Of a stretch of DNA of 64,000 nt, positions 8,605 through 59,348 are shown one piece after another (the first letter of the stretch is position 1; every line of letters begins with the position of its first letter). This DNA comes from Bugulina stolonifera (lineage: Eukaryota; Bryozoa; Gymnolaemata; Cheilostomatida; Bugulidae). Below the pieces are notes generated by a model. That model was not told the DNA's origin. It saw nothing but the letters and a program-made list of their open reading frames with translations, and searched no databases. The position numbers and the translations under genes were made by a program. The stretch is taken from contig OW285187.1 in assembly GCA_935421135.1 (NCBI GenBank), positions 5,208,001 through 5,272,000 on the forward strand, in the 5' to 3' direction.

Positions 8605-14928
<6,324 letters not shown>

Positions 14929-30109: not shown

Positions 30110-30560
30110 ATGGCCAAAAACCAGCTGAAGCAGTGCACAGATTGGTTCCTCGGACGGTTTGATAACCCATAACTCATAACAGTTGATCAGACTGCTGGTT
30201 CAGCAGTAATTGCTCTGCTGTTTTAAGAGCACTGGTTCTTAAAATGCCGCCGCATACAGTCACAAGTGGTTGGTTAACAATAAACAGGCCAACTATCCTA
30301 AATTGCATAATTTGGAAAACAAAACATCAAATTAGGTATTATAATTTACAATTGGATTACGCTATAAATTTTATAACCAAAACGAGCATAAACACTTCCT
30401 AGGTATTCAAACACTTTTAAAAAATAGCTAATTGGTAAAAATAAGTTGCACAAGTGCATAGACTGGTTACTCAGGAGTAATTTGATACTTCATAACAGTT
30501 GTTCAGACCACTGGTTCAGGAGTAATAGCAGTTTTAAGACCACTGGTTTGGTAAGGCCAG
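30110..30560 (+). repeat. Two diverged copies of a 140-base unit
   Basis: About 30112-30250 and 30425-30560 share GCAC..TGCATAGACTGGTT-like words, TCATAACAGTTG(A/T)TCAGAC, CTGGTTCAG(C/G)AGTAAT and GTTTTAAGA(G/C)CACTGGTT in the same order and orientation. They look like a direct duplication of about 310 bases offset. Function and family are unknown. Confidence 0.55.
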
Positions 30561-31456
30561 AGGCGGGAAAAAGTCCGTTCAAGAGCAATATGCTTAACAA
30601 TCCAGGGCGTGTGCACACACAACATCACCATGTGGCATGCCTTGACACTACGTAGCGCTATAGGTAACGCTATAGTTTAAGACGCTATAGTTTAAGACGT
30701 CAGACATAACGTCATTGCTGAGCAACTGTTACTGTACAACTGCTGCAGACATACAGCACACACTGGCAATACTAATACTGTAGTCTAGCTTATTAGAGTG
30801 TAGTTGGATATTCTCAGTGAATAATTTACACATGTACATGTTGTAGATGTAGGTGCCAATTACTACTGTAGGCCGAGTGTTTAGCAAACCAAGTTTCAGA
30901 TATCTGTTAATTCTACAGCATTACACAGACATCCATTGCAGGATCAATCTAATTCTCCACTTGCATAAGTATCCCTTGATATACAGTTGTTTAATTCAAT
31001 TTATTTTATTGAAATAGAAACCGTTATTAATAATAAATACTATAGAATGATAATTGTCTATGAAATAACTAGTGGGCCCCCAATAACCATGTAAAACACA
31101 TGTGCATAACAACAACATCCAGTACAAGTGCATCTTTTAATATAATAGTAGAGAATAATGAATTTGAAAATAACAATAATTAGCACTGAAGAGGGCCGTC
31201 TGACTGGTGAGGGTCGAAGCTGATAATGTCAGTGCATCAAATGTCCGCCCCATCACAATATTTACAAGTAGTGAGAAATAGTTGGACGTTTAATGGTATC
31301 ATTATAGAGTAAAAGTTCCACTTGCGTTAAAGAAAGTTAGTACGTGTATCATAAAGTTGAAAAATAAAATACATACTAGTGTGGGTGTACAAAAGTTATA
31401 TAAAGATATTATTATTGAAATTATAATATTAATGATGGTGTGCAGATCAAAGCTGC
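30561..31456. other. Unassigned AT-rich stretch
   Basis: Contains a short tandem CGCTATAG-TTTAAGACG repeat near 30655-30705 and otherwise nothing recognised. It may belong to the transposon cluster to its right. Confidence 0.4.
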
Positions 31457-31827
31457 TCAGCCTGCCTCCTTGGATTGACAGCTCGCTGAGCCTGAATAAT
31501 TGCGCTCTGAGAGAGAGAGAGAGGAAAGACCGCTTTTCCCAAATTCATAAAGGTGAACATCGTCACGGCCAAAGTGACCAATGCGACGGTGCCCCCAATA
31601 CTGAATTTGAGAAGCGATTGCCCTCTTAAACCGCTCAGCAAACTGTCTATACTGGGAAGGAGACCGACCACGCGGCTTAGCCCTGCATACCACCCCACAA
31701 AACACTACTATTCGCCCATAAGGCAGATATTTTTCAATATAAGTATCTGCTAGCTGCTCTGGTGTTAGGAGAGGGGGATGAAGTGGAAAATCATTACCAC
31801 CACAGTGCACCACTAGTAATTTGGAAT
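31457..31827 (-). CDS. SGNH/GDSL esterase-like module exon (transposon-associated)
   Basis: An uninterrupted minus-strand frame that starts at a good acceptor (TTTAATTTCAG before 31827) and ends at a stop at 31457. It reads SKLLVVHCGGNDFPLHP, then a helix with LTPEQLADTYIEKYL, a beta strand RIVVFCGVVC, a basic helix (QYRQFAERFKRAI), and DDVHLYEFGK. GGND and DxxH correspond to blocks III and V of SGNH hydrolases, where Asn helps form the oxyanion hole and Asp-His belong to the triad; the Ser block would lie in an upstream exon I could not fix. Such modules occur in retroelement and tyrosine-recombinase element proteins as well as in host enzymes. The same module recurs, decayed, at 41.0-41.7 kb, so it is probably mobile DNA. 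Confidence 0.55.
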
Positions 31828-32449
31828 CTGAAATTAAATAAGCGAAGTAGGAGTAAGAGTGTCACTACCAGACTAACTCTGTACTTTCAAATCATGCAAG
31901 CACCGACTGCTTGACAGTGCTACTAGTAAATAGTAGAGTTCAAAAACAACTATTGTATTCCATTATAATGTATTAACTTACAGGTGAGTTATTAATTTTG
32001 GCCTCTGGTCGCCCTAGCAGTGTTGGCGGATTCGCCAGCCTCCACTCTAAGGAGTTTTTCCGCAATAAACCAATTTTTTTACATTACTATAAAAGCAGGA
32101 TGAATGTGCCACTCTAGGTTTCTGTTACAAGAGACGAGAAGATTTATTTCTGTCAACTAATTGCTTTATATAACTCCCCTTTCTTTTTTTCTTCTGCCTC
32201 GTTATGTAGGAATGGCCTATGATGGCGACTTTCATGACTTGTCCTAAAATTAGAAAGTTTCAGAATGCAGTATTCAGGTATAAAACATCCATTTCAACAT
32301 TTGTAACATAAAAATTACCCAGCTGGCATTTAAACATCAACTTTAGAAATTCAGTAAATAATTTGTTTTTATTATCTGTACCAGCCCCGGGTCTACAGTT
32401 GTCGGACAGTAGACCCAACCTCTGACCCGGCAGCATAAAAATGTCTACC
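31828..32449. other. Spacer between SGNH module and copy A
   Basis: No confirmed gene. A moderately GC-rich patch at 31990-32070 could hold an upstream exon of the SGNH gene on the minus strand (a CCTGTAAGT donor is present near 31980), but no motif supports it. Confidence 0.35.
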
Positions 32450-33291
32450 TCTCCATATTGTATAACAAATTAAATGATCATAAATATATTATTCAGAACT
32501 TTCATGAAAGAAAATGGAGAATTTTGATTGTAAAATTTCTAATATTTATTTTCAAAGTCAATGGTATAACTAATAATAAATATGTAGTTGAATTAAAACA
32601 CTGGGCACCACATGGAGTAAAACAGGAGAGAGGGAGTAGAACGGGAGAATATCAAGATAGGTGGGAGGTGATCAGCAGTGCTCGCACATACAGCAGACCC
32701 GCTTATAGTGCATTAGTGAACACTGCTTGCTCATCGGAGCCGCCATAATTTATCAAATGATAATAGCTGTCTGCGCCGGAAACAAACTAACAATATTTCA
32801 CACATATATGGTTAGTTTTTTGATATAAAGCCTGTGTTTTGTATTTATTCAGTGTAAAATCTATATTACATGTAGTTGTTTAAACTGTAGATCAACTCTT
32901 CTAATCAGAAGGATAGATAGCTAAACATAAATAAAGTGAAACCCGCCTAATTCGAATACTTGGTTATTTCAAACGATTATCATTGATACCTGCTGAGTAA
33001 TATAGAAATAGCTTCAACCAATACGAATTTACTACACAAACCACAGATCTCTACAAAGCAAATCGGCAATACAGTCCTCAAGTTCGAAATCTACAGTCTC
33101 CGCATCTGCAAAATCTTCTATCCAAAAAAGTGCTCTAAAACGAAGCTTCGAATCCCTCTTTTTTCATCACAATAGTTTACAAAACATAAACACCTTCCTC
33201 ATTCCAAAGCCAAACAATATCTTTGCCAACTAGAGAAGAAGGGTTATTCACAATAACCGAAGCAGCATCAACAAGATCATGGGGGATGGAG

Positions 33292-34313
33292 TCATCTATC
33301 GAGCGTATTCATCTTCCTAGTCGGACCCTTTCTATCCAGGTTGGCACGCTTTTGGCCTCGAGCTGTTAACCGAGCTGCAATTTCCTGCTCGGTGGTACTT
33401 GCGCGAACTTTAGAGACTACTTTTTGTTCTTGGGTCTGACAAATTACTCTCATCAACTCAGTAACAGATATGCGCTCTATCCAATCTGTTGTTCTGTTGA
33501 ATGCATAAGAAGTCATGCTTGACACATGCGAATAACTTGCTGTACGGCATATGCTCATGATGTCAGTAACGCCTAAAATCGTTTCTGCTGTAATGTTATC
33601 GACCGGTGCATTCTCTCCCGCAACCACAAGAGTTGAAGGAAGGTCGAAAAGCTCCCCACCAGGCAGATATTGAGCTGCCTGTCGCTCCACAACTTCAAGA
33701 AATGATTCGGCTGTGAGCTTAGCCAGCTTTAGTGATTGCTAGTCAGTATTAGACTCCGATAGAACCTGCACTATAGCAGACTGAGCTGATTGGTCGAAAG
33801 GAAGATTAAAGCAACAGAAACCGAAGTCCCACATTAAATGAGGATTAATAATCAACTGTTTCAACTGTTGGACCATGTAAGCAAGAATTGGACAACTTTC
33901 TAAATTTTTCAAGTCAGAACGCCTGTACAAACACTTCATCCAAGGACCAGTAAGACACTTACCAAAGAGACCACATGCAACCAATTGACGCTGCGTTGAT
34001 GGCAAATTTAAATCATGCCTCATTTGCTCTCTATATGAAGGACTCTGATTGCAGAAACTCACAAAATACTCAGTACATTTTTCAAGTAATATAAATTTGC
34101 AGCTAACTCGAACAAAACATGGAACCTATTAGCTATATATCTGGGAAGCAACTTGGAATTTACACCTTTCATTTGCAAGAATTTACTGAAGCCAATTGGG
34201 TCACCTTTCTGTTTGTATCGCATCTTATGCACACTTATAATTTTTACACAAGCAGGGTTGGTACCATATAACAATGTCTCTGTATCTATTTCACTTTCTA
34301 ACTGTTTACACAC
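33292..34313 (-). pseudogene. Decayed middle part of the copy A protein
   Basis: Three consecutive minus-strand frames (34059-34313, 33739-34062, 33292-33690) that read as one protein broken by frameshifts or unseen introns. Landmarks: KQKGDPIGFSKFLQMKGVNS followed by LLPRYIANRFHVLFELA; CGLFGKCLTGPWMKCLY; GGELFDLPSTLVVAGENAPV; and SYAFNRTTDWIERISVTEL with a basic segment RLTARGQKRANLDRKGPTRKM. The last segment is repeated in copies B (37.3 and 37.65 kb) and E (59.1 kb). Function unknown; no DDE or reverse-transcriptase motif is apparent. Confidence 0.5.
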
Positions 34314-34917
34314 TTTAAATCAACGAAGTAGCAAGACTGTCAAGCGGATGTACATTACAATTCAAATCAAGGAGTTCATGGCCAACATATTTTTCTAACT
34401 CGGCAGAAACACTGATTCACAGCAGCCCTATCACTCATAGTAGAAGAAATCTTTTGCTTGAACTCACCAAGGACAGCCTCAAAGACAAGACTTATGCTTT
34501 GCATACACTTTAGCAACAGGTTCTATTGAACTAGTAATATGATCCAAATAATCCTTAGTGGTTCCTCCAGGCAATGACCCTCGCTAACATGAGCTGAATT
34601 GATAGAGGTTGCATCCCAAGCCAGGTTCACATTGTTGGTTGCCATGATGGCTTCCGCTGCTTGCAATTTTGATAGCAACCCCATATCATCAACCATGTTG
34701 CAGACAGACAGACAGAATCGAGCATATTCAAACAAACACCTTTCAATACAGCAGGAATATTGTACACACATGTAGACACTCTTTCTAACAGCCAAAGTAT
34801 ATTTCCCATTTTCTTTTGTCGCAAAATTTTCTTCAGATCTGCATATTAAATCCTCGTAGTGCTTCAGCTTCAGTTCTTGAACCCTTTCACCATCAGCATT
34901 CTTTAAAGCAGCGAGTC

Positions 34918-35556
34918 TTAACTATTTTTTACTTCTTTTTCCAGCTCATGCATTTTACGCTTTAGTTTAGTAGTTGTTTTTAAGGAATACTTCCATTTTT
35001 TTCTATAGGATTCACCTCTTTTCTTCCAAAATGTAAGAAAGGTGCTCAAGTCATCTAGCCTGTTCGGCATATCTACATTTTTCTGTTGCAAGACCTCGAT
35101 TTCTTTTCGGTAAGCCAGATGGTGTGCAGGTAAGACTGTCAATATCTGTTTAGTTGCTATGTGGGTGGATGCAATGGAGGAAGTAGTGGCCAAAGAGTGA
35201 GGTAATTGGGATGAAGAAGTGGACAGCGAATCTGCTCCATGTGGAGCTGAGCTTGGAACTACATGAAATAGAATGGAGATGTAGTCGAAAGTTTTTTTAA
35301 TTCTGCTTTGCTTCCCAGTACTTTTGAGCATTTTCATAAATCTTAGATAAACATGTGCTACAGTTGTACGAGAAACAGTTATATTAAATTTTGACTTCAT
35401 GTAGTCCACAGCAGTAGTGAATTTGATAATGTTTTTGACACATCGACCTTGCTTTGAGATAAATTGTATTATGTGACCATTTTTTATTCTACTACCTCCT
35501 ACCAATGTTTCAAATTCATATTTGCCACGCTCAGCTACAATTTCAGGTTTCATCAT
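34918..35556 (-). CDS. N-terminal and coiled-coil protein of copy A, 212 residues
   Basis: Starts with a true ATG at 35556. Residues 1-80 (KYEFETLVGGSRIKNGHII, CVKNIIKFTTAVDYMKSKFNI, VSRTTVAHVYLRFMKML) form a compact, basic, helix-rich region that could bind DNA; no named fold is identifiable. A Ser-rich linker follows (about 100-140), then a strongly basic coiled coil (VLQQKNVDMPNRLDDL, FWKKRGESYRKKWKYSLK, KLKRKMHELEKEV). The frame ends at a stop at 34918, although homologous coding continues in other frames further left, so the full protein is broken. The equivalent coiled coil is visible in copies B and C. Confidence 0.5.
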   Translation of the reverse strand: MMKPEIVAERGKYEFETLVGGSRIKNGHIIQFISKQGRCVKNIIKFTTAVDYMKSKFNITVSRTTVAHVYLRFMKMLKSTGKQSRIKKTFDYISILFHVVPSSAPHGADSLSTSSSQLPHSLATTSSIASTHIATKQILTVLPAHHLAYRKEIEVLQQKNVDMPNRLDDLSTFLTFWKKRGESYRKKWKYSLKTTTKLKRKMHELEKEVKNS

Positions 35557-35650
35557 GAAATAAACAAAGTTTTAAATTAAGACAGGAAAATTCAACTAAG
35601 TCTGAACACAATTGAACAATAATATACTACACAGTCCTTGAAAAAAAGCC

Positions 35651-36419
35651 CAGAAACAAAAAGAATTGCACATGCCTATCATATTCTTGCATGGTGCACA
35701 TGGCCTGCATGAAAGAATGGTTTTCGATTAACACAGTGTGCGAAGTGTGATTATATGGTGTGTACCCACTTCAATTTTAGTGGTCGCATGGCCTGTGTGC
35801 CCTCATTTTAATAACTAGTTTCCCCATACAGCTACCATGGACCTGAAAGTGTAGTGGTAGAGTGCCTTACATTCATTCATAGGGACATGTTATAGTAATA
35901 TTTGTAGCAATATTTTGCACATCTTTTCCGGTAGAATAGTTATAAATGGAGAGTTCTGGGCCACTTTTGCACTCACCGACTCCCTACGCTTGTGCACATA
36001 CAGTTCAAAGCATCAATACACATCCAAAAAAATTTACAAGTATATTTTATTTATCATTACAATATTTTTTTGCAACTTCACTCTGCTTAGATAAGTTCAA
36101 TGTCGGTGACTTTGTATTGATTTATTGAGATTTAATGGTTGACATTCCTAGTAATGTTTACTTAGCTTTTGAAGCAATCAATTGTGACGGCAGTCTTGTA
36201 ATGCTGTAACTTGTTTATCCTAGCAACATCTCATTCTATATATCGTTTAAGAGAAAAATTAGAAGACATTTTCTCATTTAACCCTGATTGAACAGGAAAA
36301 TATCTCTCGAACTATTTCCTTATAGCAACGACGTAAACAGTGCAACTCCTCACTCGTGACAGATGTCTCTGCATTCACTGCAGCAATTATATGTACAGTA
36401 ATGCCACACCTATTTGATG
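35651..36419. other. Spacer between copies A and B
   Basis: AT-rich, no recognised gene. It may contain the 5' non-coding end of copy A and unrelated sequence. Confidence 0.35.
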
Positions 36420-39060
36420 CTTATAGTGAGAAAATTTTGTGTATAGTGTTATTACGGCTGTAAATAAAAATTGTCACAGTGCCCACATTGCTAATAAATA
36501 CACGTAGCTTGCATAAACGGGTAGAAATAAAATCTGTAATTTGAAGGATAGTTTGATTTATGAGTAATATTTCAAATTTGTATAGAGTTACCAAATGATA
36601 ATAGCCGTCACTTTTGGAAATAAAACTAACCATATTCAGTTTAAAACTTGTGTATTGTATTGTACACATATCTATTAGGTGTGAAATCTTACTGTTTAAA
36701 TTGGTTATTGAACTCAACTTTACTAATGAGATGGATAGATAGCTAAAAACACACAAATTCATGCTTAATGCCAAATTTTCAACTGTACCACGAACAAACT
36801 ACAAATTATAACGTCACAAAGACTGGTGATAGCCAAGTCCATTAGATGAAGAAAGGAAAAATCTTATCTGACTCCTCACTACAAAATTGAAATGCTCAAC
36901 TAACACAAATCCCCGCAATAACCGATCATACATGTAAAAAAGTTACACAAACCAGAGATCTCTGCAATGACAATCAGCAATAAAGTCTTTAAGCTCAAAA
37001 TCTGCTCTTTGCATCTGAGAAGTCTTCTACCCAAAAGTTATAACGAAGCTTCGAATCAGTTTTTCTCAACACAGCAATTATACAAAACATCCACGCCATC
37101 CTAAATGCAAGGCCAAATGAAATCTTTGCTAACCAAAGAAAAAGAAATATCCACAATAACCGAAGTCATGTCAACAAGATCATGGGAGATGGAGTCATCA
37201 ACTGAACAAACACCATGAGCAAAACTAGAAAGGACTCCCAGCAGTGCATTCATCATTCTGGTTAGACTCTCTCTATTAAGGTTGGCACGCTGTTGGCCCC
37301 GAATTTTCAACCGTGCGACAATATCCTGCTTAGTGGTATTTGCACAGACTTTTTTCTTCAGCCTGGCCAATTACTTCCATCAACTCGATAACAGAGATGT
37401 GTTCTATCCAATTTGTTGTTCTGTTGAATGCATAGGAAGTCTTGTTTGAAACATGCGAATCACTTGCAAGACGGCAACGTCTCGTGATGTTATCAGTTGT
37501 CGAGGAATGTCAAAAAAATCTCCACCGGCAGATATCGTGCTGCTTGTCGCTCTGAACGAACACCATGAGCAAAACTAGAAAAGACTCCCAGCAGTGCATT
37601 AATCATTCTGGTTAGACTCTCTCTATTAAGGTTGGCACGCTGTTGGCCCCGAGCTTTCAACCGTGCGGCAATATCCTGCTTGGTGGTGTTTGTACAGACT
37701 TTTTCTTGGGCCTGACCAATTACTTTCATCAACTCGATAACAGATATGTGTTCTATCCAATTTGTTGTTCTGTTGAATGCATAGGAAGTCTTGCTTGAAA
37801 CATGCGAATCACTTGCAGTACGGCATCGTCTCGTGATGTTATCAGTGAGGCCTAAAATTGTTCTGTAATGTTCTCAACCAGTGCATTCTCACCTGCAACC
37901 ACCAGGTTTCGATGAAGGTCGAAAAAATCCCCACCTGGCAGATATCGTGCTGCTTGTCACTCCACGACTTCTAGAAAAGATTCGGCTATGAGTTTAGTTA
38001 CCTTTACTGATCGCAGGTCAGCATTAAACACCGATAGAAGTTATACGACTTAGCAGCCTAAGCTGATTTGTCAAGTGGAAGATTAAAGCAACGGATTACT
38101 AATTAGCTCTCTTAACTTCTGAATCATGTAAGCAAGAATTGGGCAGCTTTGAAGATTTTTCAAGTCATAACGCCTGTATAAACACTCCATTCACGGACTA
38201 ATAAGGCATTTACCAAAGAGACCACATACAACCAATTAAAGCTGTGTTGTTGCCATATTCAAATCATGTCTCAATTGCTTTCTTTACAAAGGACAGAAAC
38301 TCACAAAATACTTAGTCAGGACAAGTAGTATAGAGTAGCACCTAACTCAAATAAAGCATGAAACCTAATATATCTCAGAAGCAACTTCAGAATTACACCT
38401 TTCATGTGCAAGAATTAGCTGAAGCCAATTCGATCTCTTTTCTGTATATAACACATTTTATGTACACTCAGTGCAATCTTTACCCATGCAGGGTTGGTAC
38501 CACATAATATCTTTGCACCTTTTTCACTTTCAACTGTTACACACTTTAATAAAAGAAGCAGTGGGGCTATCACGTGGATGTACGTTGCAGTCATTGCCAA
38601 GATATTTCTCTAACTCAGCATAAACAGTGGTTCACAGCTGCTCTATCATTCATAGTTGAACAATTTTTTTGCCTGAACTCACTAAAGACAATTTCAAAGA
38701 CCGGCTTCTATGCTTTTTCTAACGCCCAAAGTATATTTTGGCATGATGACGTTTTTCTTCTTAAAAGTCTACTGATGAAATCCTCATGCTTCAGCTTTTT
38801 TTCAAGCTCTTGAACTCTATTATCAGTATTTCCGTTGAACCTTCATCTCATCATCAAAACAGCATTTTCTTTCTGACTATTTTTACTGCTTTTTCTAACT
38901 TGTGCACCTTCCAACTTAGTTTAGTGGTAGTTTTAAAGGGATGTATTCATCTCTCCATCCATTTCTCAGCCTTCACTTTTCTTCCAGATCGTAATTTGAG
39001 TGTTAAAATTGTATAACCTTGCCTGCATGCCCACATGTTGTTGCAACGCCTCAATTTCTT
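36420..39060 (-). mobile_element. Copy B of the unclassified element, N-terminally truncated
   Basis: Repeats the 3' region of copy A (36420-36960), the C-terminal block (36960-37200), the RGQQRANLNRESLTRM basic segment, the NRTT..IE middle segment (as coding traces), and a much-mutated copy of the middle region up to the coiled coil (38750-39060). The N-terminal 80-residue domain is missing. Stops and frameshifts are frequent. It contains an internal tandem duplication. Confidence 0.55.
37201..37985 (+). repeat. 350-bp tandem duplication inside copy B
   Basis: The sequence from 37201 (ACTGAACAAACACCATGAGC) is repeated from 37551 with few changes over roughly 290 bases. The first unit lacks about 65 bases present in the second, between the ATGTTATCAGT and AGGTCGAAAAA-type words. 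Both encode the RANLNRESLTRM segment on the minus strand. The similarity indicates a duplication later than most decay of the copy. Confidence 0.75.
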
Positions 39061-40720
39061 TTCTGCCTCTCCATGTTGTATAAGATAAATAATCATAAAT
39101 ATATTCATGAGAGAAATTAGATTGTAAAATTTCTGAAGTTTTTTTTCAAAAGTGGCTTTAAAATACAATGTATACTCAATTATAATATTATAGGGAAAAT
39201 ACAATCATAATTAAAGATTGAAAATCAATTGGGATATTTACATGTACATGTACAAAGTGAAATAGAAATACTAAGCACCACATGGAGCAGAACAGAAGAG
39301 AGGGAGTAGGCCAGGAGAATATCAAGATAGGGGAGAGAAGGCGATCAGCAGTGCTCACACATAGCAGACCCGCATATAGTGCATAAGTGAACACTGCTTG
39401 TGTACACTGTACATGTATAATATGTATATGTCTATATGTATATAATGGGAGTTAAATTTTGCTGTCTAAATTGATTCATCAGATCAACTACATAAAAGCA
39501 TGATTAAAATTTACAGCTGTACCGTGAACAAACTACAAGCTATAATACAATACAATCAAATCAAGAAAGTAGAAATCTCATCTGATATCTCACTACAAAA
39601 TTGAAATGCTAGACTAACACAGAACCCATACAGTGACCTACTAAACTTATGTAAGAAAAACCTACACAAACTAGAGATCTCTGCAAAGCAAATCAGCAAC
39701 AAAGTCTTTAAGCTCAAAGTTGACAGTCTCAGCCTCTTAGAAGTGTTCTACCCAAAAAGCGCCTTATAACGGAGCTTCGAATCCCGCTTTTTCTAAACTC
39801 GATAATTATGCAAAACATCCACCCCATCCTCATTCCAAAGCCAAACAAAATATTTTCCAACTAAAGGATTATTCACAACAACCAAATCAGCATAAACATG
39901 ATCATGAAAAATGGAATCATCAATAGAACTAGCAGCTGTCCATTGAACCTTTGTTTCACCTAAAAGGAAATCCTCACACCTAGCATTTTTCAAAGCAGCA
40001 TTTTCTCTTTGTATTTGGTGGGTTTTAATGAGTTGATGGCTACTTTTTATTGTTTTTTCTAGCTCGTGCACCTTCCTTCTTAGTTTAGTGGTAGTTTTAA
40101 AAGAACGCATCCATCTCTGTCTATAGGCTTCATTTCTTTTCTTCCAGAACGCAACTTGCGTATTGAAATTGTATATCTTTGCTTGCATATCCACATTTTG
40201 TTGTTGTTACGCTTCAATTTCTTTTCTGTCCATGAGATGATGTGCAGTCAAGACGGTCTATGTTTTTTTGCCACGTGGGCAGATGCAATGTAGAAAGTAG
40301 AATCAATGAGACCAAGTTGACAAGGGATCTGCTCCATGTGGAGATGAGCATACAGCATATGTAGCCTGAAGTATTTTTGATTTCATTGACTGTTCCTCTA
40401 TCTTCGAGTATTCGCAAAAACTTTGCATGAACTCGTTCTACACTTGCAAGAGACCGCAGTATTAAATTTTAATTTAAAGTAATTAACACTGTTAACTTTT
40501 TTGACGCCTCGACCTTGTGTTGACAGCTTGTATTATATGGCCATTTTTTATTTCACTACCTTCCTTCAAAGTTTCCATGTCATTTTTTGCCAAGCTCAGC
40601 TCAAATTTGTGGTTTTATAACGAAATTAATTCAGACAACAAAGCCTTGACATCAATAAGAGAAAATTCAACGGAAAAATAAACACAATTGAACAATGATG
40701 CATTACACAGCCTTTGACAA
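39061..40720 (-). mobile_element. Copy C of the unclassified element, internally deleted
   Basis: Begins (left) with the same 3' region as copy A (CATGGAG-AAACAG-GAGAGAGGGAGTAG, then ATATCAAGATAGG and GTGATCAGCAGTGCTC words at 39270-39400), continues with the C-terminal block, then jumps to the coiled coil and N-terminal domain. The middle region of copies A and B (about 1.5 kb) is absent. Right of 40700 similarity to copy A fades after ACACAATTGAACAAT. Confidence 0.55.
39793..40194 (-). CDS. Copy C fusion frame: coiled coil joined to C-terminal block
   Basis: A 133-codon ATG-started frame in which the basic coiled coil (FWKKRNEAYRQRWMRSFK, KLRRKVHELEKTIKSS) leads directly into the C-terminal block (SIDDSIFHDHVYADLVVVNN, LVGKYFVWLWNEDGVDVLHNY). 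In copy A these lie about 1.5 kb apart, so this frame results from an internal deletion that kept the frame open. Whether it is expressed cannot be judged. Confidence 0.45.
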   Translation of the reverse strand: MDMQAKIYNFNTQVAFWKKRNEAYRQRWMRSFKTTTKLRRKVHELEKTIKSSHQLIKTHQIQRENAALKNARCEDFLLGETKVQWTAASSIDDSIFHDHVYADLVVVNNPLVGKYFVWLWNEDGVDVLHNYRV

Positions 40721-42478
40721 TCTCTAAATGCCTAGATCTTGCTTGACATAAATTTACCCTCTTCTATTTCACTACCTTCTAACGAGTACTACCTCAGGCT
40801 TTGCAGTTTTAAGATCAGGTTCAAGATGATCTTCCTCGAATGGAAGAGTTTACCTTGCCCAACAGTATTAGAGTGCCCAGGATCGAATGCAAATTTGTGA
40901 TGCAGACAATCCTATGCCCAATAAGGATGATTGGTCAAGGAATTCAACTGTCCCTACAAGCATGAATTAAACTGCAAAGTGAGACTCACAAACTCTTAGA
41001 CGCTGCTGAATCTGGGAGATCCTCTTTTCATCGCTGAACGAAAAACCAGCATTCCTCTTTTCACCACCAAACAAAACAGCGCTTTGTTGGCACCATTTTT
41101 ATGTTACAATATATTAGGCTGTTTGCAGTATTCTGAAGAGTCTCTTCACTGAATAAAAACTTCCTGGACATAATTTCTACATTCAAGTATTAGACTGTCT
41201 GCCAGGGATTCCGGTGTTGTGTCGCCTTCCCAGATTGTTGCCCCGACAATGGACAATGAGCAGATCCACTGCTTGTTGAGGTGTCTCAAAGTATAGAATT
41301 TTCTTACTTTAACTCCCAGTCAAATTTGGAGACAATCGCATACCCAATAAGGATGATTGGGCAAGGGATTCTATTGTCCCTACAAAGCCAGAGTCACAAA
41401 CTCCGAGATGCTGCAGTATATTGAATAGCCTCTTTTCACCACCAAACACTAACTTCTTCTCGGGCATAATTTCTATATTTATTTGACTGTCTGCCAGGGA
41501 TTCAGGTGTTATGTGCTGCCTTCCCAGATCGTTGCCCCCAGGTGTCAGACAGTGAAGCCACTCGTATGTCATATTGATGGTAAAATGGCACTTATGCTCT
41601 CTGTTGTGAGGTTTTCAGCAGGAGCATTTGTGCCCAAATTCATCATTGAGGATTCAAGATTAGCAAGCTTAGCCAGATCTGTAGCATGTCTGTCATTGGT
41701 TTCTTGCAAAGAGGTTTACTGACAGTAACATTTGAAGTATTGAAACAGCAGAATCATTGGCCCCAAAGGTGTTGAGGTTTGGATTTAAGAGCCTCTACCT
41801 TTACTAGCATATAACTGAGGTGTGCTCCGCTAGCTAAATTGGACCCACCAGACACCAGAGCTCTGTCCGGGGCTTCCAAGCTTTCAAATCATGTACCGTT
41901 TACTGCCTATAGACAGCACCTTTTCCACAAGCAGTATTTACATGTAGATGATCAAGCAATGATTCTCGTGAATAATTGATATTACCACATAGCTCGAATT
42001 GCACATGAAACATTTAGGTATTAGTTTGCTACTGATGTTCTGGAGTTTGAAGTAGGCCTTGATAGATGCAGGTCCCCTTTTCCATCTTGATACTGCATTT
42101 TTGAAATGTTGATAATCACCTTTTGCAGAGCGGAATCTGCTCCCAGCAGGGGGCTATCAGCTCTTTACTCCACCTTGCATAACTTCCTGAAGGCTATCGA
42201 GGGATTATCAAGAAGACGCATATTACAATTTAAATCTAGAATATCATGACCTAAGAACTCTTACTGCTCTCTAGAAACGCAATGATCGACAGCAGCTGTC
42301 GCTAACGGTGTAGACGTAATCTTACTTTTTTTGGTCAGAAAGTATCCGAGTAGTAAAGGCCATGGTGGGAACTACATAGCTTGGCAGAGGCCCGCCGAGT
42401 GATAGTGATGTTTCGCACTTAATTGGCATCACTAGACTTCAACATGACCTCCACATCTCGCTATTGGGATCGTGTCCT
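40721..42478 (-). mobile_element. Left part of copy D with SGNH module fused
   Basis: Minus-strand reading from 42478: middle region words matching copies A and B (AATTTAAATCTAGAATATCATG near 42230, corresponding to the copy A stretch near 34360), then a RHATDLAKLANLESSMMNLG-type segment with NAPAENLTTESISAIL (equivalent to copy A's QAAQYLPGGELF...NAPVDNITAETILG), and then, instead of the usual C-terminus, SGNH-like sequence. The remaining N-terminal part of copy D lies at 56147-56950, beyond the 13.65-kb insertion. A short N-terminal-like scrap lies at 40730-40800. Confidence 0.5.
40880..41722 (-). pseudogene. Two decayed SGNH-like modules in tandem
   Basis: At 41309-41572 a frame reads TPGGNDLGRQHITPESLADS, matching HCGGNDFPLHPPLLTPEQLADT of the module at 31.6 kb. 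A second copy about 300-400 bases to the left (about 40880-41235) repeats the CCCAATAAGGATGATTGG, CTCTTTTCACCACCAAACA and GACTGTCTGCCAGGGATTC words. Neither retains the DxxH end or an intact frame. Confidence 0.5.
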
Positions 42479-42619
42479 CTAATAAGTAGTGCTGGGCGGT
42501 TTTGATTTGCATGTGCATTCAGTTTTTTTGCAGGATTTTTCAAAAAACTGATTGAAACCGAAGTTGTCTTCTCACCCTCGGTTTCATTCGGTTTTTTTTA
42601 TTTATGAAAAAAAACCGAA

Positions 42620-43323
42620 CCGTAATTATGGCGGGAAAATTTAAACTTTTTTGGAGTTATCATCCCTTGATCCTATACGGAAAAGAGCAGACAACTCCAG
42701 TACGAATTATATCACGCATTTTGGAGTTATCACACTCCTCATTCCAATCGCTATAGAAAAGACAACTCTTTCACTTGCAGGATTAGCTGGCCACAGCGGA
42801 AGTCTAAAAGCTAGAATTTGCAGAAGTTCAACTGTGGTAGGACTTGCAGGAAGCCCACAGATGCTAGTCAGGTTTAGTAATAAAGAAGCATATGATATAG
42901 TGATATACTGTATAATCAGGGTTGTTTTTAACCACATCTCAACATTCAATATCCTATGTAATTCATGCAAAATAGGCAGGCAGATCTACAGTATAACAAT
43001 TTATTATTTGCCCATGTCAAGGCAAGGCTCCTATTGCAAAGTAATTTGCATAGCCTCATTGCCTGGCAAATAAAATAATTATTATTCACTATTCATATTA
43101 TTCATAGCTGGTGGTCATTTGTACAGGAACTAATCGTATAAAATAGCCTTATGATGATACTAACAGTTACGACTGGGGAAATACTAATAGCCTGACGAAT
43201 GCCTTGAATTATTACACACACATAATTTTATATATTGTATAAATATATTATTATACATGCCACCACAACACATTAATCATTAATGTTCTACAAGATTCTA
43301 CAGTTTGCAATAATAATACTTAC
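42620..43323. other. Left interior of the hAT composite
   Basis: Between the left terminal repeat and the BED-like exon. A 140-codon plus-strand frame (42651-43073) and an 87-codon minus-strand frame (42707-42970) overlap here; neither has recognised motifs or an agreed direction, so no gene is called. Confidence 0.3.
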
Positions 43324-43494
43324 TAAAGTCTTGTTCGTTAGGTCATTTATTGAGAAAAACGACCACACTGCAGATCGATGGTGTCTAATGTAGCCAATCT
43401 GCTTAGAAGTTGTCGGGTTCTGCTCCTCATCAGCACTTTTGTTCAGTGGACCATGTGGTTCCACAACCATTATCTCCGGCTCAGCCGCCGCCAT
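43324..43494 (-). CDS. Possible first exon with the start of a BED-type zinc finger
   Basis: Begins with ATG at 43494 (MAAAEPEIMVVEPHG) and ends at a strong donor (TTTA then GTAAGT) at 43324, giving 57 codons. The end, HRSAVWSFFSINDLTNKTLV, resembles the opening of a BED finger (S-x-V-W-x-x-F), with the Cys and His ligands expected in the next exon. BED fingers are common at the N-terminus of hAT transposases. The following exon was not found, so the gene is incomplete or decayed. Confidence 0.4.
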
Positions 43495-44189
43495 ATTACT
43501 AGTTACTGAGATTCACTGCAAGGACAAAACAACAATAGAAACAAACTTCAGTTATGATTTACTAAAACAAGTTCAGGTGTTGCCTGCTATCAGTAAAGTG
43601 CCCCTAACATTGAATGGTCAAAATGGATTTATTAGTATTACAGTATGAAAATGCACAGATCAGTCAAATTAAAGGGCATAATATGCTACGCAAGACAAGC
43701 CAGCATAGTTACTGGATGCGCACAAAACTGTTGTCAGTTATTGAAAGTATGTTTTGGTTAAGGAGAGGTGGAAACAATGTAGTAGAACTCAACTATGCAA
43801 GTTAACTTGGGTTTAGCAACTGAGTTACAAACCATGCTGGAAGCAAAATTTTTGTAGTAATACAATTCATGTCGGTACATTTATTTACTAAATGTGTAAA
43901 AATGTAGATGTCATCAGGAATTGAAAGGGAGCCAGAATAGCTGACTAACCAGTTTAGGTCTGAGTGAACCCAGTTTAAGTCAACTATGCAGGATTTGTAA
44001 CTAGGTGGTCATTTTGCTATTTTTCAAAAATACTAAACTTAATGATACTCAACATTAAATTTGGAACTAGGAGAAGTTTGCCACTGATACCTATGTGTAT
44101 TTGCCAACTCTAACTATAGGCCTACAACAATGCATTATCCAACAGAAGTTAGCAACAATAAAACCACTAGTAAAAAAGCTGCTAGGAGG

Positions 44190-44650
44190 CATGCAATACA
44201 CTATCACAGTACGTCAAAACCGGTTGCATGGCTGCAAACTCGAGGAAGAAAAAGAGATGAATAAGAGTCCTAGTAGCTATGACCACAAGGTAGGAGGTAA
44301 CATAGCTGCAGTTCGGTGGTTTGATAAAAAAGCAGTTTCTTTGCTGTCTTCTGTCGTAGCCGTTGAGCCAATAAGCACGACGACGCGATGGGACAAGAAG
44401 AAAAAGTCACAGGCGACTGTCCCAAAACTCCAAATGCCAGCTGTGGTCAAAGATGGGTGGAATTGATCTGAAGGATGGTTTTCTAGCAAGGTTTCGTTTT
44501 CAAATGAAAATTCGGAGATGGTAGTTCCATCTATTTTGGCACTCACCTATGGTATGCCTGGTAAACGCTTGGAATGCCTATCATAGAGAATGTAAACTGT
44601 TACAACTTCCTGCAAACGATATCATAAGATTTGAAGCACCTTGTTAGGCA
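44190..44650 (+). pseudogene. piggyBac transposase C-terminal remnant
   Basis: Plus-strand frame with TVRQNRLHGCKLEEEKEMNK, SYDHKVGGNIAAVRWFDKKA, SVVAVEPISTTTRWDKKKKS, and VPKLQMPAVVKDGW. These correspond to the piggyBac stretch that reads G-T-(V/I)-R-x-N-R, then (V/I)-x-W-(F/Y)-D-x-(K/R), then V-E-P-x-S-x-x-x-R-W-D-(R/K)-K, then P-x-(I/V)-(I/V)-K. After a stop, another frame continues VNAWNAYHRECKLLQLPAND, like the end of the piggyBac DDE domain. The catalytic aspartates further upstream and the Cys-rich tail are absent. TTAA-flanked ends were not identified. Confidence 0.75.
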
Positions 44651-45365
44651 AGTCACCTACAGCAAAATTAATTACCGTTTGTTGCTGCTTTTGGGACTTT
44701 TTTATTATTATTGTTTTGTTACTTTTATGCCTACCACTACATGCACATGTATGGATTTACCAAAAACTGTTAATTTTAGAGAACAGTAATACCAGTAACT
44801 CTACCGTGAGATCTAAACATAACAATGTTATACACAGGACACTTATAATATAAATTCTAAGTGAATAGTAATTCTTGACGTTTTAATTTTGATGTTTTGT
44901 AGTTGTTCAACAATTAGTCATTCTACGTTATGATCCTTCTACAGCATTTAATAATACTGTAAATTGTTTGCATGCATAGTAATTGTTGATAACTAGATAT
45001 ACTTTTCAGGTCACCATTTGGGTCAATGAATAAAAGAGTTACAAATTACCACTGCCTTGAGAGACCTGTCGTTACCAGTAAAATGAGGACAGGAAGTAGG
45101 TTACTAGCGACCAGCTAAATAACATATCAAAACAGTACAAGAAGCAGGTCATTAGCAACTAGCTAAAGAACGTCGAAAACGAATCTACAGGTAATAAATG
45201 ATAAGAAGCAGGTTACCAACTAAACAACACTTCAAAACCCGAATAATGGAGGAATATTGTTTGGGGTGGTGACGTTTGAGGTGCTGGAAGAGACGGCTGA
45301 ACCACCTTCACCACCTTCTGACACGGGTCACAAGTAAACTGAAACTGTGACAAAATCTTTAATTG
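44651..45365. other. Non-coding interior of the hAT composite
   Basis: No recognised coding motif. A GTTACTAGCGACCAGCTAAATAAC-type word is repeated at about 45100, 45145 and 45210, suggesting a short degenerate tandem repeat. Confidence 0.35.
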
Positions 45366-45430
45366 TAGTGCTGAGCGGTTTTGATTTGCAATTCAATAAA
45401 TATTTATTTATTGACAGATTTGACCATTAT
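45366..45430 (+). repeat. Second left terminal repeat of the hAT family
   Basis: TAGTGCTGAGCGGTTTTGATTTGCA here matches the start of the outer element at 42487 (one difference in the first 25 bases). It faces the same way. Its own right end and octamer (left flank TTTAATTG) were not found, so it marks an inner, partly lost element, or a duplication of the end. Confidence 0.7.
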
Positions 45431-45610
45431 TTTTAGGGCGCTGCGAAGAGGGACAAATTAAAACAGTGTACTTAACAACCAACTTAGTGTTGACTTTAAT
45501 GGTGGTACTTTACTATACAGGGCAACTTTTGACTGAAGGGAGGATTATTACAAGATTCTACTTATTGTACGCTGTTTAGCAAATTATTTCAGGATACTAG
45601 TAGTTACTAT

Positions 45611-46640
45611 TCATTCGACTGGTGTTTCAACTGACCCCGCGGCATTATCAACTTGTAGAGGCATGCAAATGTATTGATAAATCAAAAATCTTTTAGATAG
45701 AGGCAACCCCATTCTACTCTCATTCGTTGGGTTATTTATAATGGAGGGAGTACTACACGATGAGGCTGAGAATGCGGACAGCAAAGGAAAGAAGAAAGTC
45801 CAAAGTTCATAATCAACATCTCCATCTAGAGAATCGCTCTGCACAACTTAAAAAAGCAAGAGTAACATTTTTGTATGTCTCAATAATTGACAGAGTCGGC
45901 AGCATTATGTTGTATAGTGTGCGGTGAAACCAGTTTATACACAAATATTACTTAGCGAACTTTAGCGAATATTACTTAGCGATTCTACACAGATATTATT
46001 TTAATAACAACTTTGTTACAACTTGCATATTATTTGTTGGCAGGCATAGCAGCATACTGGAGAAAGAACATATTGCTGTCAGCACGACAAATTTAATAGT
46101 CAATAGTATTTCTTACTGTTGAATAGACTGGTATTTAAATAATACCAGATGATTGCACACTGCGGTTTAGGTTCTAGACCCAAATAGGACAACACTGCAT
46201 ACAATTAGCTGCTTTTAGAAAAATATTTTAATGCAGTACCCGCAACAAGCAGGAATAGAATCAAGAGAAACCAGAAACGTACCAAGCTGTGAATTGTAAG
46301 CGTTTATATTTGCATTTCCCCAACATGCAAAAACATCCTGGGTCAGGCCTTTGGCATCAATGTCCATCCTCTTTTTAACCTTAGCGAGCTTCCTTCTACT
46401 TTCATGAGAGTAAGAAAATATTGATACTATTTTTCGGACAGATTTAATTAACGTGGTGACTTCCTCGGAATTGTTCAAGGCTGTTGAAAGGGCACGTGCA
46501 GGATGTGCTGAAAGCAGAAGACACCATCTGAATCTACTGTAGCGTCTTACATGGTGCAACATTATTGGCTGCAGAGTCTGTAGAAATGGGGGTCATATTT
46601 CGTTCATGTAAGCCATATTCTCCTTGAGTTTCTTTCACAA
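45611..46640 (-). pseudogene. Decayed hAT transposase, central and C-terminal pieces
   Basis: Minus-strand reading: TTDSAANNVAP near 46600, then HPARALSTALNNSEEVTTLI and KSVRKIVSIFSYSHESRRKL (46370-46510). This is the arrangement of hAT catalytic cores, where T-T-D-x-A-x-N is followed by the HxLNLAV helix and a V-R-x-I-V-x-x-F segment. At 45611-45700 YICMPLQVDNAAGSVE resembles the C-terminal dimerisation motif with Y-L-x-(M/I)-P and S-V-E-R. Frames are broken by stops. The C-terminal piece lies next to the terminal repeat at 45366, the order expected for a minus-strand transposase. Confidence 0.55.
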
Positions 46641-48400
46641 AATCACACATGGCAGCACTTGTATGCGACTGTAGAGTGTGCATTGTAGAGAGACCTCACT
46701 ACAAGCTTCCACTGAGGGATAATATCTAAGTCAAAGAAAAGGGCCAATAGCAATGCTACTCCATCTATCTATGGTACAACTAATGAACTAGTTGACTAAA
46801 GTTATGTACCAGCCCAACCTTTATTGGTTGTACGTTTTGGGAACAATACTGTTGATTAGCATTCCCATATTTTAATGGAAAAAGTATCTCACTAGAACTA
46901 GAACACTAATGATTCCCAGACGCTGCGTTGTTTGTGGAGTGTAGTGCAAAAAGGGGACAAATGTTCACATGCTCGTTCAGTTCTGGAAAATCTCGCAACA
47001 AATTTGCTTTATGACATCAACGACTACCTTTGATTTAACTGGTGGTTAAAATCACACCGAGCCATCACTTTATTGCAGAAGCTTGCATGAACACCAACAC
47101 CAAGGACTTGCAGGTGTTAGTGTTCTCTTCCAAAGTGGGCTGCAAAAAGTGGGAAATCTGTGACTGGCAAAATTTAAAGGACTAATGTAACAAATGAGAG
47201 GACTACTGGACGACTGCGGGTGGAAATGAGAAACTAAGCAGAAAGACTCCCAAAATACAATTTATAAATATCTTCTTATTTCTCATTGATTTGGCAACAT
47301 CATTTTGTAGTGTCGCAAAGAGGGGCGGATTAATACATATCTAGTTTACTTAGAAAACATGTAAGCAGCTAACACGGATGCTCTAATCATGTGAGCCTTG
47401 ACTTCCACTTCCATCGATATCTAGAGTTCTGTAAGCACATGTAAGATGACTTAGAACAGTCAAATGAAAAGTGACAATAATGGGAAAAAGTAGTAAAAGA
47501 ACAGAGCAGCCAAGAAAAGTTTCACAGTTGCCTAAAACCATGGTACTCCATTGTAGGATTTGACCACGTAGAAATATTTAAATATACCATTTATTATGTT
47601 AGGTCACCAAGGAATAGCACATGCAACTGCATTGTTACAATTACTAGTTACTTTAGTTTAATTGTTGGCCATTAAAAGTTTGAATTTGTGTGTATATATT
47701 AGTATATGAATTTTCAGGTTGACTAGTAAACATTGCTGCTATTCTTATACAGCCCCGATATAATTGCTATTGTTACATGCCTGTGAAACCGGACAGAAGA
47801 ACGGAATGCCGTAACTGTGACAGAGATCAATGGTATAAATTAACTGAAAAACAATGAAAAATTGTGTGAAACATTGCTAGTTCTACATTGTTCTGTTGGG
47901 TTTTGGCCAAATATTCCACTCATTAATGAAGTCCCGATCCAGATTGTACACTTGTTCCTTTTATAATGCTGCTTTAAAACAACAAAAAAGGGTTTTCATT
48001 CTTAGCTAAGAGTAGCAATTTTATATAATGTGCTTACTCACTCGACCATCCAACACCGGGCAGCAAACAATAATTCAAGAATTCATTGTGTCACTCTTAC
48101 CGTTTACTCCTCACCAGGTTTCCCATGAAAGAACAGTCTCGCATGACATACCGTCCACATGATAGTGTACAAGCCTAGGCGAAAACGTGTGCAGAAAAAT
48201 GATCATCCTCAATGCTATGGTGATGTAGCTGATGTCATTTAAAGAAGATAGACTAGCGTTTTCTGAATTTCTTTGGTGAGAAAGAAAGTATGGAAACGAG
48301 ATATTGATCAGCCACTGGCTGAGGTTCAGAAATGTCCTGTATGACAATTATCACTATTATTGCGTGTCAATTACTTATAACACACAAGAAGGCAAAGTAA
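46641..48400. other. Interior of hAT composite without clear coding
   Basis: AT-rich DNA with stop-filled fragments; some words (GGGACAAATTA, CTGATTTCTCATTGATT-like) also occur near 49.8 and 51.4 kb, so parts are older duplicates of that unit. No intact domain is visible. Confidence 0.35.
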
Positions 48401-48409
48401 AAGCACGCA

Positions 48410-48800
48410 CAGTTTACATGCTTGATATTGGATATTGCAGTTTTAGAAATTTGGACTTGCAGTACATTCCCATTTCAAGGTTTTTTATAGATGAGATAAT
48501 TTCTGTTTCCTCATCAGAATCAAATCTATTACACATTGAAAGAAAACGTGTGGTATGCAACATTTTTCAAACAGACTGGCTAGAGGGAACCAACAAACGA
48601 ATTATCATGGGGACTAGTGAAGATATGGTGACCGCATCATCCCGAGACAGTAGATGGGTCAGGCAAGAAAATGGCTTGAGGTAGCCAACAAGAGTCTCTA
48701 TAAGGTCGTTTGTTCAACTGACAACATTATTTCCATGTATTTAAATTGGTTAGTAAGCACCTCAATAGCTGCTAGCTGTGAACCCAGGAGTTCTGAAAGC
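48410..48800 (+). repeat. Diverged copy of the 49.1/50.7-kb unit
   Basis: Shares with 50474-50850 the words GATATTGGATATTGCAGTTT, CAGTACATTCCCATTTCAAG, GGAACCAACAAACGAATTATCATGG and GTCGTTTGTTCAACTGACAAC in order. With the two units below it makes at least three copies. Confidence 0.65.
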
Positions 48801-49089
48801 AGATGCAAGATGATATTAATTCAAAACCAAGTAAAATAAAGGAGTGACAATAACGGATAAACAATAGAAGTCACAAGCAGTAGTAAGAGAACAGCAGGCA
48901 AGCAAAAGTTTTACACTTGCCTGTAAGAATATCGCTGATCCAGAATGGTTACCATTGAGTAGTTGAGATTGGATACCATTGCTGTTAACTTAGCACATAT
49001 GTATGCCCAAACAGAGTCTTTAATTTCCGCCCCGATGAAGCGAGCTCCTGCTTCAGGTACTGGTGTAGGCTTAAATATGTCTTGTATCA

Positions 49090-50054
49090 GAATTATCATG
49101 GGGGACTAGTGAAGATATGGTGACCGTATCATCCCGAGACATCCAGATCGGTCAGGCAAGAGAATGGCTTGAGGCAGCCAACAAGAGTCTCTAAAAGGTC
49201 GTTTGTTCAACTGACAACTTCATTTCCATGTATTTAAGTTGGTTAGTAAGCACCTCAATAGCTGCTAGCTGTGAATCCAAGCGATAGTACATTTTGTATT
49301 TGCTTCCCCAGTAGGAAAGAAGTGAGACGATACTTTGCACAAACTTGATCAAGTTAGCGACTTCCTTCAAATTGCTCAAACCTGTTGAGATCGCTTCAGA
49401 ATTAATAGTAACCTTGCTAGAACATCGACATTAATGTTGACAGAGACAGGACCACATCTAAGTTACTAGTTCCAGTTTATTTTATGAAACTAAGTTGGTT
49501 AATATTTATTAATCGACTGGTATTTAAACTGTGCACCTGGGTATTATTCCATTCAAGAGCTTTATTAGTTTCAAAAAGCGACCAACTCTTGTATATTGTT
49601 GGCCGCCGGCTCCGCGGCAATCGAGATGATATTTTGCTGATGTAAACCATACTCCTTCGAGTACCTTATACAAAACAACAAGGCAGGACGAAGGACACAT
49701 CCCAATACATTTGAATACTTGAGAAAAGATCTGTGACTGAAAGGAAATGCCACTTGGTGCATCAATCTGCACAACGCTAAATGTAATTTATAAAGATGTT
49801 CTAATTTCTCATTAATAACTGACAGGGACAGCATTATTTTGTGTTGTGAAAAGGGACAAATTATGATGGGCTACACCATGTGCGTGGTTACTACTTTTTT
49901 TACAGAACTAATGCAAGATAAAGAAGAGGCTTCGAACCAGAAATTAAAATTATTTTCTCTCTTATTAATGTGTCATAATGAACTTGAAATATGTTATTTA
50001 TAACTAATGCAAGTCTAAAAGTCACTAAATACAGATATAAAATACTGGTCAAAA
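49090..50054 (+). repeat. 965-bp unit, copy 1 of a near-identical direct duplication
   Basis: Matches 50657-51620 almost base for base at an offset of 1567 bases. Differences noted include AT-versus-GC at the GACATCCAGATC site, one T fewer in a T-run, and a few substitutions. On the minus strand it carries a piece resembling the hAT core (EVANLIKFVQSIVSLLSYWG then SKYKMYYRLDSQLAAIEVL, 49191-49379), broken from the rest. Confidence 0.85.
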
Positions 50055-50656
50055 CCCACTCAAGTATGCGGCCGGTGAGTGTCCGACTAGGCCTATATCT
50101 ATCACAACTACGACCTGAAGACGGTATGCTTCTCCTCTTGTCAAAAGAAATGACATAATGGATGCTTCGAAGGAAGCCACTACTACGACAAACTGATGGC
50201 GTCTAATTACCGAAAGAAAGGTGCACTACCCATGTTTGTATTAACAAAACCCACCCAAGCCTTGTACACAGAGGGGAAGGAGTACGCAGTTAAACTCCGA
50301 ATGGCCTATTTTTATTTATTAATTCAGGTGAGTGAGTGGTTACTACTCTTTTAAAAAACAAATGCATGATAAAGAACAAGAGGCTTCGAACTGAAGAAGC
50401 GAGATGCCATAACGCTAGGCTCCACATTGAACTTGAAATTAAAATTATTTTCATTTAATAATGTGTCACAATGAACGCACGTTTTACATGATCGATATTG
50501 GATGTTGCAGTGTTAGAAATTTGGACTTTCAGTACATTCCCATTTCAAGGTTTTTTATAGATGAGGTAATTTCTGTTCTCTCATCAGAATCAATCTATTA
50601 TACATTTGAAGAAAACGTGTGGTATGCAACAGACTGGCTAGAGGGAACCAACAAAC
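50055..50656. other. Spacer between the two near-identical units
   Basis: Includes 50210-50425, which has a diverged second copy at about 52280-52490 (words ACCGAAAGAAAGGTG, ATGTTTGTAT, AGGCTTCGAACTGAAGAAGC). The last 180 bases match 48410-48600. Confidence 0.5.
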
Positions 50657-51620
50657 GAATTATCATGGGGGACTAGTGAAGATATGGTGACCGTATCATC
50701 CCGAGACAGCCAGATCGGTCAGGCAAGAGAATGGCTTGAGGCAGCCAACAAGAGTCTCTAAAAGGTCGTTTGTTCAACTGACAACTTCATTTCCATGTAT
50801 TTAAGTTGGTTAGTAAGCACCTCAATAGCTGCTAGCTGTGAATCCAAGCGATAGTACATTTTGTATTTGCTTCCCCAGTAGGAAAGGAGTGAGACGATAC
50901 TTTGCACAAACTTGATCAAGTTAGCGACTTCCTTCAAATTGCTCAAACCTGTTGAGATCGCTTCAGAATTAATAGTAACCTTGCTAGAACATCGACATTA
51001 ATGTTGACAGAGACAGGACCACATCTAAGTTACTAGTTCCAGTTTGTTTTATGATACTAAGTTGGTTAATATTTATTAATCGACTGGTATTTAAACTGTG
51101 CACCTGGGTATTATTCCATTCAAGAGCTTTATTAGTTTCAAAAAGCGACCAACTCTTGTATATTGTTGGCCGCCGGCTCCGCGGCAATCGAGATGATATT
51201 TTGCTGATGTAAACCATACTCCTTCGAGTACCTTTTACAAAACAACAAGGCAGGACGAAGGACACATCCCAATACATTTGAATACTTGAGAAAAGATCTG
51301 TGACTGAAAGGAAATGCCACTTGGTGCATCAATCTGCACAACGCTAAATGTAATTTATAAAGATGTTCTAATTTCTCATTAATAACTGACAGGGACAGCA
51401 TTATTTTGTGTTGTGAAAAGGGACAAATTATGATGGGCTACACCATGTGCGTGGTCACTACTTTTTTACAAAACTAATGCAAGATAAAGAAGAGACTTCG
51501 AACCAGAAATTAAAATTATTTTCTCTCTTATTAATGTGTCATAATGAACTTGAAATATGTTATTTATAACTAATGCAAGTCTAAAAGTCACTAAATACAG
51601 ATATAAAATACTGGTCAAAA
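50657..51620 (+). repeat. 964-bp unit, copy 2 of a near-identical direct duplication
   Basis: See the copy at 49090. The minus-strand frame at 50758-50946 encodes exactly the same 62-residue hAT-like fragment as 49191-49379, showing that the duplication is young compared with the decay of the transposase around it. Confidence 0.85.
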
Positions 51621-55980: not shown

Positions 55981-56146
55981 AACGGAATTGTGGGACTGAA
56001 CACGGTGCGACTTTTAAAACTGAATAAAACCGCACCGCCGCATTCGGTGTCGGTTTTTATTTTAAATTTTGGCGGTTCTTGAACCGAAGGAAAAAAAAAC
56101 TGAAAAACTGAATGAAACCGAAACACCATGCAGCACTACTAATAAG

Positions 56147-56960: not shown

Positions 56961-56989
56961 CTACAACAATAACCAGAACAGATTGAGCA

Positions 56990-58950: not shown

Positions 58951-59058
58951 TCTTTGGGTGAGGTTGTTCATCCTCCAGCAGGCTTTCCGTTCTGTCATTC
59001 CATATTGGTTTCTTGACGCCAGGAGATTCCCTCCATTGTATTGGGCCGGCCAAAGTCC

Positions 59059-59290: not shown

Positions 59291-59348
59291 TCTCATGTTT
59301 TTTTAATGCTTGTATAACGACTTAATACGAATTTAACATACATAATAG

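Follow-up and report, generated by a model that had tools for sequence, protein, structure and literature searches.

How did a set of coiled-coil genes, repeated head to tail and accompanied by an SGNH hydrolase gene, come to lie in one stretch of the genome of the bryozoan Bugulina stolonifera? The stretch, here called the window, is 64,000 nucleotides long (contig C1, positions 5208001-5272000) in a genome of 235 Mb and 27 contigs. An earlier note on its sequence had proposed an undescribed mobile family with an SGNH module, in which no Asp-Asp-Glu (DDE) motif was seen and the mode of movement was left unexplained. We conclude with high confidence that the repeated blocks are old copies, now decayed, of a class II cut-and-paste DNA transposon, with a DDE transposase gene on the 5' side and an SGNH/GDSL-type hydrolase gene on the 3' side. 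The evidence for such an element comprises the predicted fold of the main protein, the invariance of its DDE and CxxH residues, 13-bp inverted ends, exact 7-bp duplications and a gene-less copy with the same ends.

The main protein is probably a DDE transposase

The main protein was studied through the copies in the window, through L042, a copy elsewhere in the genome in which the transposase is one open frame, and through P0001, a relative with a predicted structural model. The most complete window copy of lineage 1 (defined below) is copy A, with the following features (catalytic residues as predicted):

30416..35717, minus strand: copy A, degenerate transposon copy, transposase gene then SGNH gene (BLASTN pieces to genomic copies L046, 3989-9345, and L047, 7364-2451; end inspection)
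33035..35571, minus strand: copy A transposase pseudogene (tblastn of the L042 and P0001 proteins)
34607..34627, minus strand: NLAWDAT, first catalytic Asp (D377 in P0001, D308 in L042)
34415..34444, minus strand: STMSDRAAVN, second catalytic Asp (D453 in P0001, D384 in L042)
34339..34362, minus strand: NCNVHPLD, CxxH motif
33583..33612, minus strand: NAPVDNITAE, third catalytic residue Glu (E742 in P0001, E670 in L042)
33189..33233, minus strand: LVGKDIVWLWNEEGV, where the C-terminal beta domain begins (its strands fall within 877-942 in the P0001 model)
31460..31861, minus strand: remnant of the SGNH hydrolase gene of copy A, corresponding to exon 3 (GGND at 31790-31813, DDVH at 31550-31564)

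The N-terminal and coiled-coil frame of copy A is at 34921-35571 and the downstream frames are broken, yet the D, D, CxxH and E motifs are retained. The P0001 model contains an RNase H fold with a DDE triad, and the DDE and CxxH residues are invariant among the transposase relatives compared, with the Glu in the context APxxNMxxE. Its core is Hermes-like, and an insertion made up entirely of helices separates the second D from the E. In fold searches with the model, Hermes came out well ahead of all other structural matches; neither the P-element transposase nor other superfamilies were among the matches listed (best 50). The predicted layout is thus an N-terminal helical domain, a long coiled coil, a hAT-like split RNase H DDE core and a C-terminal beta domain. 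The statements that no DDE motif is present and that movement is unexplained must accordingly be withdrawn. No reverse transcriptase match was obtained with the main protein of L042, with its SGNH frame or with its frame at 4030-4410.

No Pfam transposase family matched the main protein (L042 at E ≤10; 18 relatives at E ≤0.1, among the families listed), and a sequence search of the PDB gave two chance-level matches in the coiled coil (E 2.6 and 8). The relatives found in protein collections include two proteins of the sea slug Elysia marginata that are named only 'hypothetical protein'. The ratio of nonsynonymous to synonymous substitution rates (dN/dS) of the transposase is 0.12 for L042 and L043 (233 codons) and 0.19 for L042 and L044 (165 codons), each a single pair.

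Inverted ends and 7-bp target duplications

The ends of L042 were located where homology to L043 and L044 stops. They read TAGGCACTACAAA and TAGGCGCTACAAA, with CTGGATG flanking each side, and share a 13-bp terminal inverted repeat (TAGGCRCTACAAA). A genome scan listed 46 exact matches to this motif, 32 of which form 16 inverted pairs (L042 and 15 further pairs). Adding a pair with a single mismatch in its second end gave 17 pairs for examination, 12 of which span 1.57-1.61 kb. Identical 7-bp flanks were found in 16 of the 17 pairs, compared with none of 272 cross pairs. Agreement at 5, 6 or 8 bp occurred in none of the 17, and at 4 bp in two. The duplications are A/T-rich, and the 16 amount to 15 sequences read on either strand, because two are reverse complements of each other.

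The locus L052 matches the two ends of L042 over 431 bp and 253 bp (80-81%), and the genes between them are absent. This pattern fits a non-autonomous derivative. L052 is the one short element compared over its whole length; for the other pairs the comparison covered the ends. A TAGACACTGCAAA site in L047 was considered as an end and set aside as probable chance.

In the mechanism that we propose, the transposase would dimerise via its coiled coil, bind the element ends, excise the element and join it to target strands 7 bp apart in a staggered insertion.

Dispersed copies form two lineages

Queries made from the window copies matched the same blocks on C1, C2, C4 and C8, so that a genome-wide search, suggested in the earlier note, found them not to be confined to the window cluster. 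With the open L042 protein as query, at least 41 matches were obtained at eight or more places, one of them full-length and open. By BLASTN the copies fall into lineage 1 (A, B, C, L045, L046, L047) and lineage 2 (D, L042, L043, L044, L048/L049), whose proteins are about 40% identical. Scans of viral-contig and genome-contig collections gave no relative of the family. As far as tested, the idea of an undescribed mobile family with an SGNH gene is borne out by the dispersed copies, the inverted ends, the 7-bp duplications and the lack of a Pfam transposase family.

A head-to-tail cluster of four copies, as in the window, is what a tandem host gene family would also produce. That explanation is extremely improbable: the frames in the window are broken, copies lie dispersed in the genome, most of them broken too, and target duplications are present at the ends of the family.

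Several other observations were made at these loci. L048/L049 (C1:26989001-27005000) is a second head-to-tail cluster, made of broken lineage 2 copies, amid which lies a P-type transposase fragment (C1:26997589-26997960). L042, otherwise open, has in its 5' region a stretch with internal repeats (L042:8108-9522) that L044 lacks. Upstream of the transposon copy in L046 there is a Mutator-like fragment (1544-2020; PF20700, E 6.2e-6, just under the gathering score).

An SGNH hydrolase gene accompanies the transposase

The SGNH gene of L042 has three exons with GT-AG borders and encodes a protein of 194 amino acids. Its family residues, assigned by eye, lie in VGDSYIS (Ser in GDS), SLNGKSGA (Gly), GGND (Asn) and DRVH (Asp, His). 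In both lineages (A, L045, L046, L047; D, L042, L043, L048) the gene is 3' of the transposase and in the same orientation. In L042 it sits between the two ends that share the 7-bp duplication. All 10 matches to the copy A SGNH query are at transposase places, and dN/dS for the single pair L042 and L043 is 0.24 over 145 SGNH codons. Our reading is that the gene belongs to the element and is inherited with it. It may play an accessory role, perhaps that of an esterase acting on membranes or lipids, by analogy with the membrane interaction proposed for the CR1 and Terminon esterases (PMC6431247, PMC4021074). A protein search with the L042 SGNH exon covered four candidates and gave no match, a PDB sequence search with the SGNH protein gave none, and a single-sequence structure prediction for the SGNH exon of copy A was unusable (predicted local distance difference test score, pLDDT, 36).

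Several results weigh against a transposon that carries both genes. The L042 SGNH protein matches the Pfam GDSL model PF13472 at E 6.6e-5, with 23.9 bits against a gathering score of 32.9. The SGNH gene of L043 has a stop in exon 2, and L044 (C1:29.22) has a transposase and no SGNH match. With the L042 SGNH exon as query, 11 of 32 matches are at transposase places and 21 are elsewhere, the latter comprising 18 frames of 146-147 amino acids, two matches at 34-35% and one at 65%. Among the 17 end pairs, L053/L054 is the sole one without a duplication. The earlier note had suggested that sharp shared ends with target duplications would support a transposon; such ends were found for the L042-type elements, and termini could be defined for none of the window copies, the lineage 1 ends (A, L046, L047) not being fixed on inspection. 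The end motif is not in excess in the window (40 matches at ≤3 mismatches, 36 by chance). The tests used gave no link to hAT, P or Dada at the level of sequence. Movement of the family is itself something that we infer from sequence and did not observe.

The 21 matches elsewhere bear on another reading, in which the SGNH gene would be a passenger, or a separate element that happens to neighbour the transposase. The 18 frames have nearly equal scores and form a second SGNH family (L099:5191-6191 and 17 other places). L099, the one of the 18 that was examined, has a GDS-bearing stretch upstream of the frame, as in L042. It is part of a repeat at least 5.5 kb long, which one other copy shares (98-100% in five samples of 180 bases). 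No transposase match at E ≤0.01 was present across about 8.4 kb upstream. This repeat is possibly a Helitron or another unrecognised element, and a fish SGNH gene mobilised by a Helitron has been described (PMC4021074). For the L042 type of gene, a passenger is nevertheless unlikely, as both lineages, with proteins about 40% identical, have the gene on the 3' side of the transposase and oriented alike, and in L042 it is enclosed by ends with a 7-bp duplication. A further SGNH match, 65% to the L042 exon, is at C1:13401537-13401722, where no transposase match was listed.

Placement among DDE superfamilies

By anatomy the family is a cut-and-paste DDE transposon, and by predicted fold it is hAT-like. 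hAT elements typically make 8-bp target duplications. The family may be a highly diverged hAT element, a member of that superfamily which makes a 7-bp duplication and has captured a hydrolase gene, and we give this nearly an even chance. Like Hermes, the best structural match, it has a predicted RNase H DDE core with a helical insertion between the second D and the E, a C/DxxH motif (listed for hAT and P in PMC8869645) and short inverted ends. Its APxxNMxxE resembles the C-terminal hAT motif SVPSERLFS in L083, and an example command in the Repbase paper selects hAT entries annotated '7-bp TSD' (target site duplication). Unlike typical hAT elements, it has 7-bp duplications, a long coiled coil, a C-terminal beta domain and an SGNH gene. 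It also lacks a match to hATC (PF05699), which was not among the families listed for the 18 relatives or for L042 at the E-values given above. A genome-wide hATC search, in which 150 of 286 candidates were scored, gave none at the L042 place, and hhalign against four hAT C-terminal frames of the same genome gave Prob 0.1, with shallow alignments. There is no Cys/His cluster of the zinc-finger kind (columns with C or H in at least 60% of at least eight rows).

Membership of the P or Dada superfamily is improbable. The P element Galileo makes 7-bp duplications (PMC2775673) and P elements share the C/DxxH motif (PMC8869645); a P-type frame of the same genome, L095, also has a long helical basic stretch before the core (read by eye). 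The family, however, has no P-type Pfam match, though the RNase H model PF21787 has 22 other matches in the genome, and hhalign against five P frames aligned the coiled-coil stretch only (Prob 0.2). Dada elements have a DDE transposase with a DxxH motif and 6-7-bp duplications (PMC3706591). They differ in their N-terminal CCCC and C-terminal CCHC zinc fingers, to which no cluster in the family is similar, and in that most Dada genes have introns (PMC3706591), whereas the L042 transposase is one open frame. The variety of target sequences (15 among 16 duplications) is a further difference from Dada.

Alternatively, and somewhat short of an even chance, the family would be a separate animal DDE superfamily with a hAT-like core, a 7-bp duplication, no link by sequence to any named superfamily and SGNH as its standard second gene, and the first case in which a cut-and-paste transposase is shown paired with SGNH. 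Such a pairing was not found in print for a cut-and-paste element (open-access literature, among the matches listed). The 7-bp duplication does not decide the superfamily, because it also occurs in Galileo, in Dada and apparently in some Repbase hAT entries.

Arrangement of the copies in the window

In a self-BLASTN of the window, the recurrence of the blocks was borne out for A, B, C and fragment E; the blocks keep the same order and are all on the minus strand. A and B are 75% identical over 1203 columns, A and C 77% over 273 columns, and the N-termini of A and C 66% over 736. The remaining copies and the insertion that splits copy D are as follows:

36510..39063, minus strand: copy B, transposase remnant, N-terminus missing (self-BLASTN, BLASTN to genomic copies, tblastn)
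39059..40720, minus strand: copy C, N-terminal domain and C-terminus, RNase H core deleted (self-BLASTN, BLASTN to genomic copies, tblastn)
59163..59268, minus strand: fragment E, 80-83% to copy B (self-BLASTN)
40771..42478, minus strand: copy D 3' part, transposase core remnant and SGNH remnants at 41557-40771 (lineage 2, L042-like)
56147..56815, minus strand: copy D 5' part, N-terminal domain and coiled coil
42487..56138, no strand assigned: hAT-type insertion splitting copy D, 13.65 kb, with ends TAGTGCTG and 8-bp duplication CTAATAAG

The note had placed copy A at 32.4-35.7 kb. Its 3' limit has to be moved, with A extending from about 35717 to about 30416 and including the SGNH module. Copy D does not align to A in self-BLASTN, and its membership was established through other genomic copies and protein. 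Both parts that the note assigned to D (56815-56145 and 42457-40771 by alignment) do belong to one copy, and they are apart because the hAT-type insertion splits it. The 8-bp duplication is at 42479-42486 and 56139-56146. Inside the insertion, 46472-46305 and 48707-48594 match frames of the hAT locus L086 (E 2e-6 and 1e-5); the hAT label comes from these matches, and a frame of 125 amino acids at 46218-46592 has no Pfam match.

Nested insertion, one of two origins offered for the cluster (the other being tandem duplication), thus holds for D and not for the C/B junction at about 39.06 kb. This junction falls inside the element and therefore looks like a deletion or duplication scar rather than an insertion at element ends. 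Copy C is without the middle of the transposase (L046 4059-4836 corresponds to 40720-39931, and L046 6532-7396 to 39937-39064), and within copy B the segment 37202-37497 is directly duplicated at 37552-37846 (94%). The head-to-tail cluster is the outcome of several old insertions or duplications, then deletion.

Elsewhere in the window there are RED-like and MORN-repeat genes, and an RVT_1 fragment (25166-25708, E 1.4e-16) that is probably a remnant of a long interspersed nuclear element. Rfam and tRNA scans of the window gave no matches. A 965-bp direct repeat inside the hAT-type insertion (49090-50054 and 50657-51620, 99%) is probably a recent duplication, and a shorter relative of the insertion's ends is found in L047 (about 7904-9250). 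The GC content climbs from 0.31-0.40 to 0.45-0.47 near 56 kb and remains high through 64000 (56001-64000). A repeat at 59345-59961 and 62195-62759 (73% between copies) is also found beside the hAT locus L087.

SGNH genes in mobile elements

SGNH-type hydrolases are carried by, or linked to, Ngaro, CR1 and Terminon retroelements and the Helitron-borne fish texim (PMC9210276, PMC6431247, PMC4021074). For the Ngaro SGNH, no function is reported as proven (PMC9210276). These elements move by reverse transcriptase, with or without a tyrosine recombinase, or by rolling circle, while the present family has a predicted DDE transposase. KolobokP is an animal DNA transposon that likewise has a DDD/E transposase and a second enzyme gene, which in its case encodes a His-Me finger endonuclease.

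Members of this protein family turn up repeatedly in sequence collections, and those scanned are without a Pfam transposase model. The transposase assignment, with its DDE triad, ends and duplications, would allow such genes and repeats to be annotated. SGNH hydrolases occur in several unrelated kinds of mobile element, and a DNA transposon that keeps an SGNH gene under apparent constraint would be a system for testing the role of SGNH without reverse transcription.

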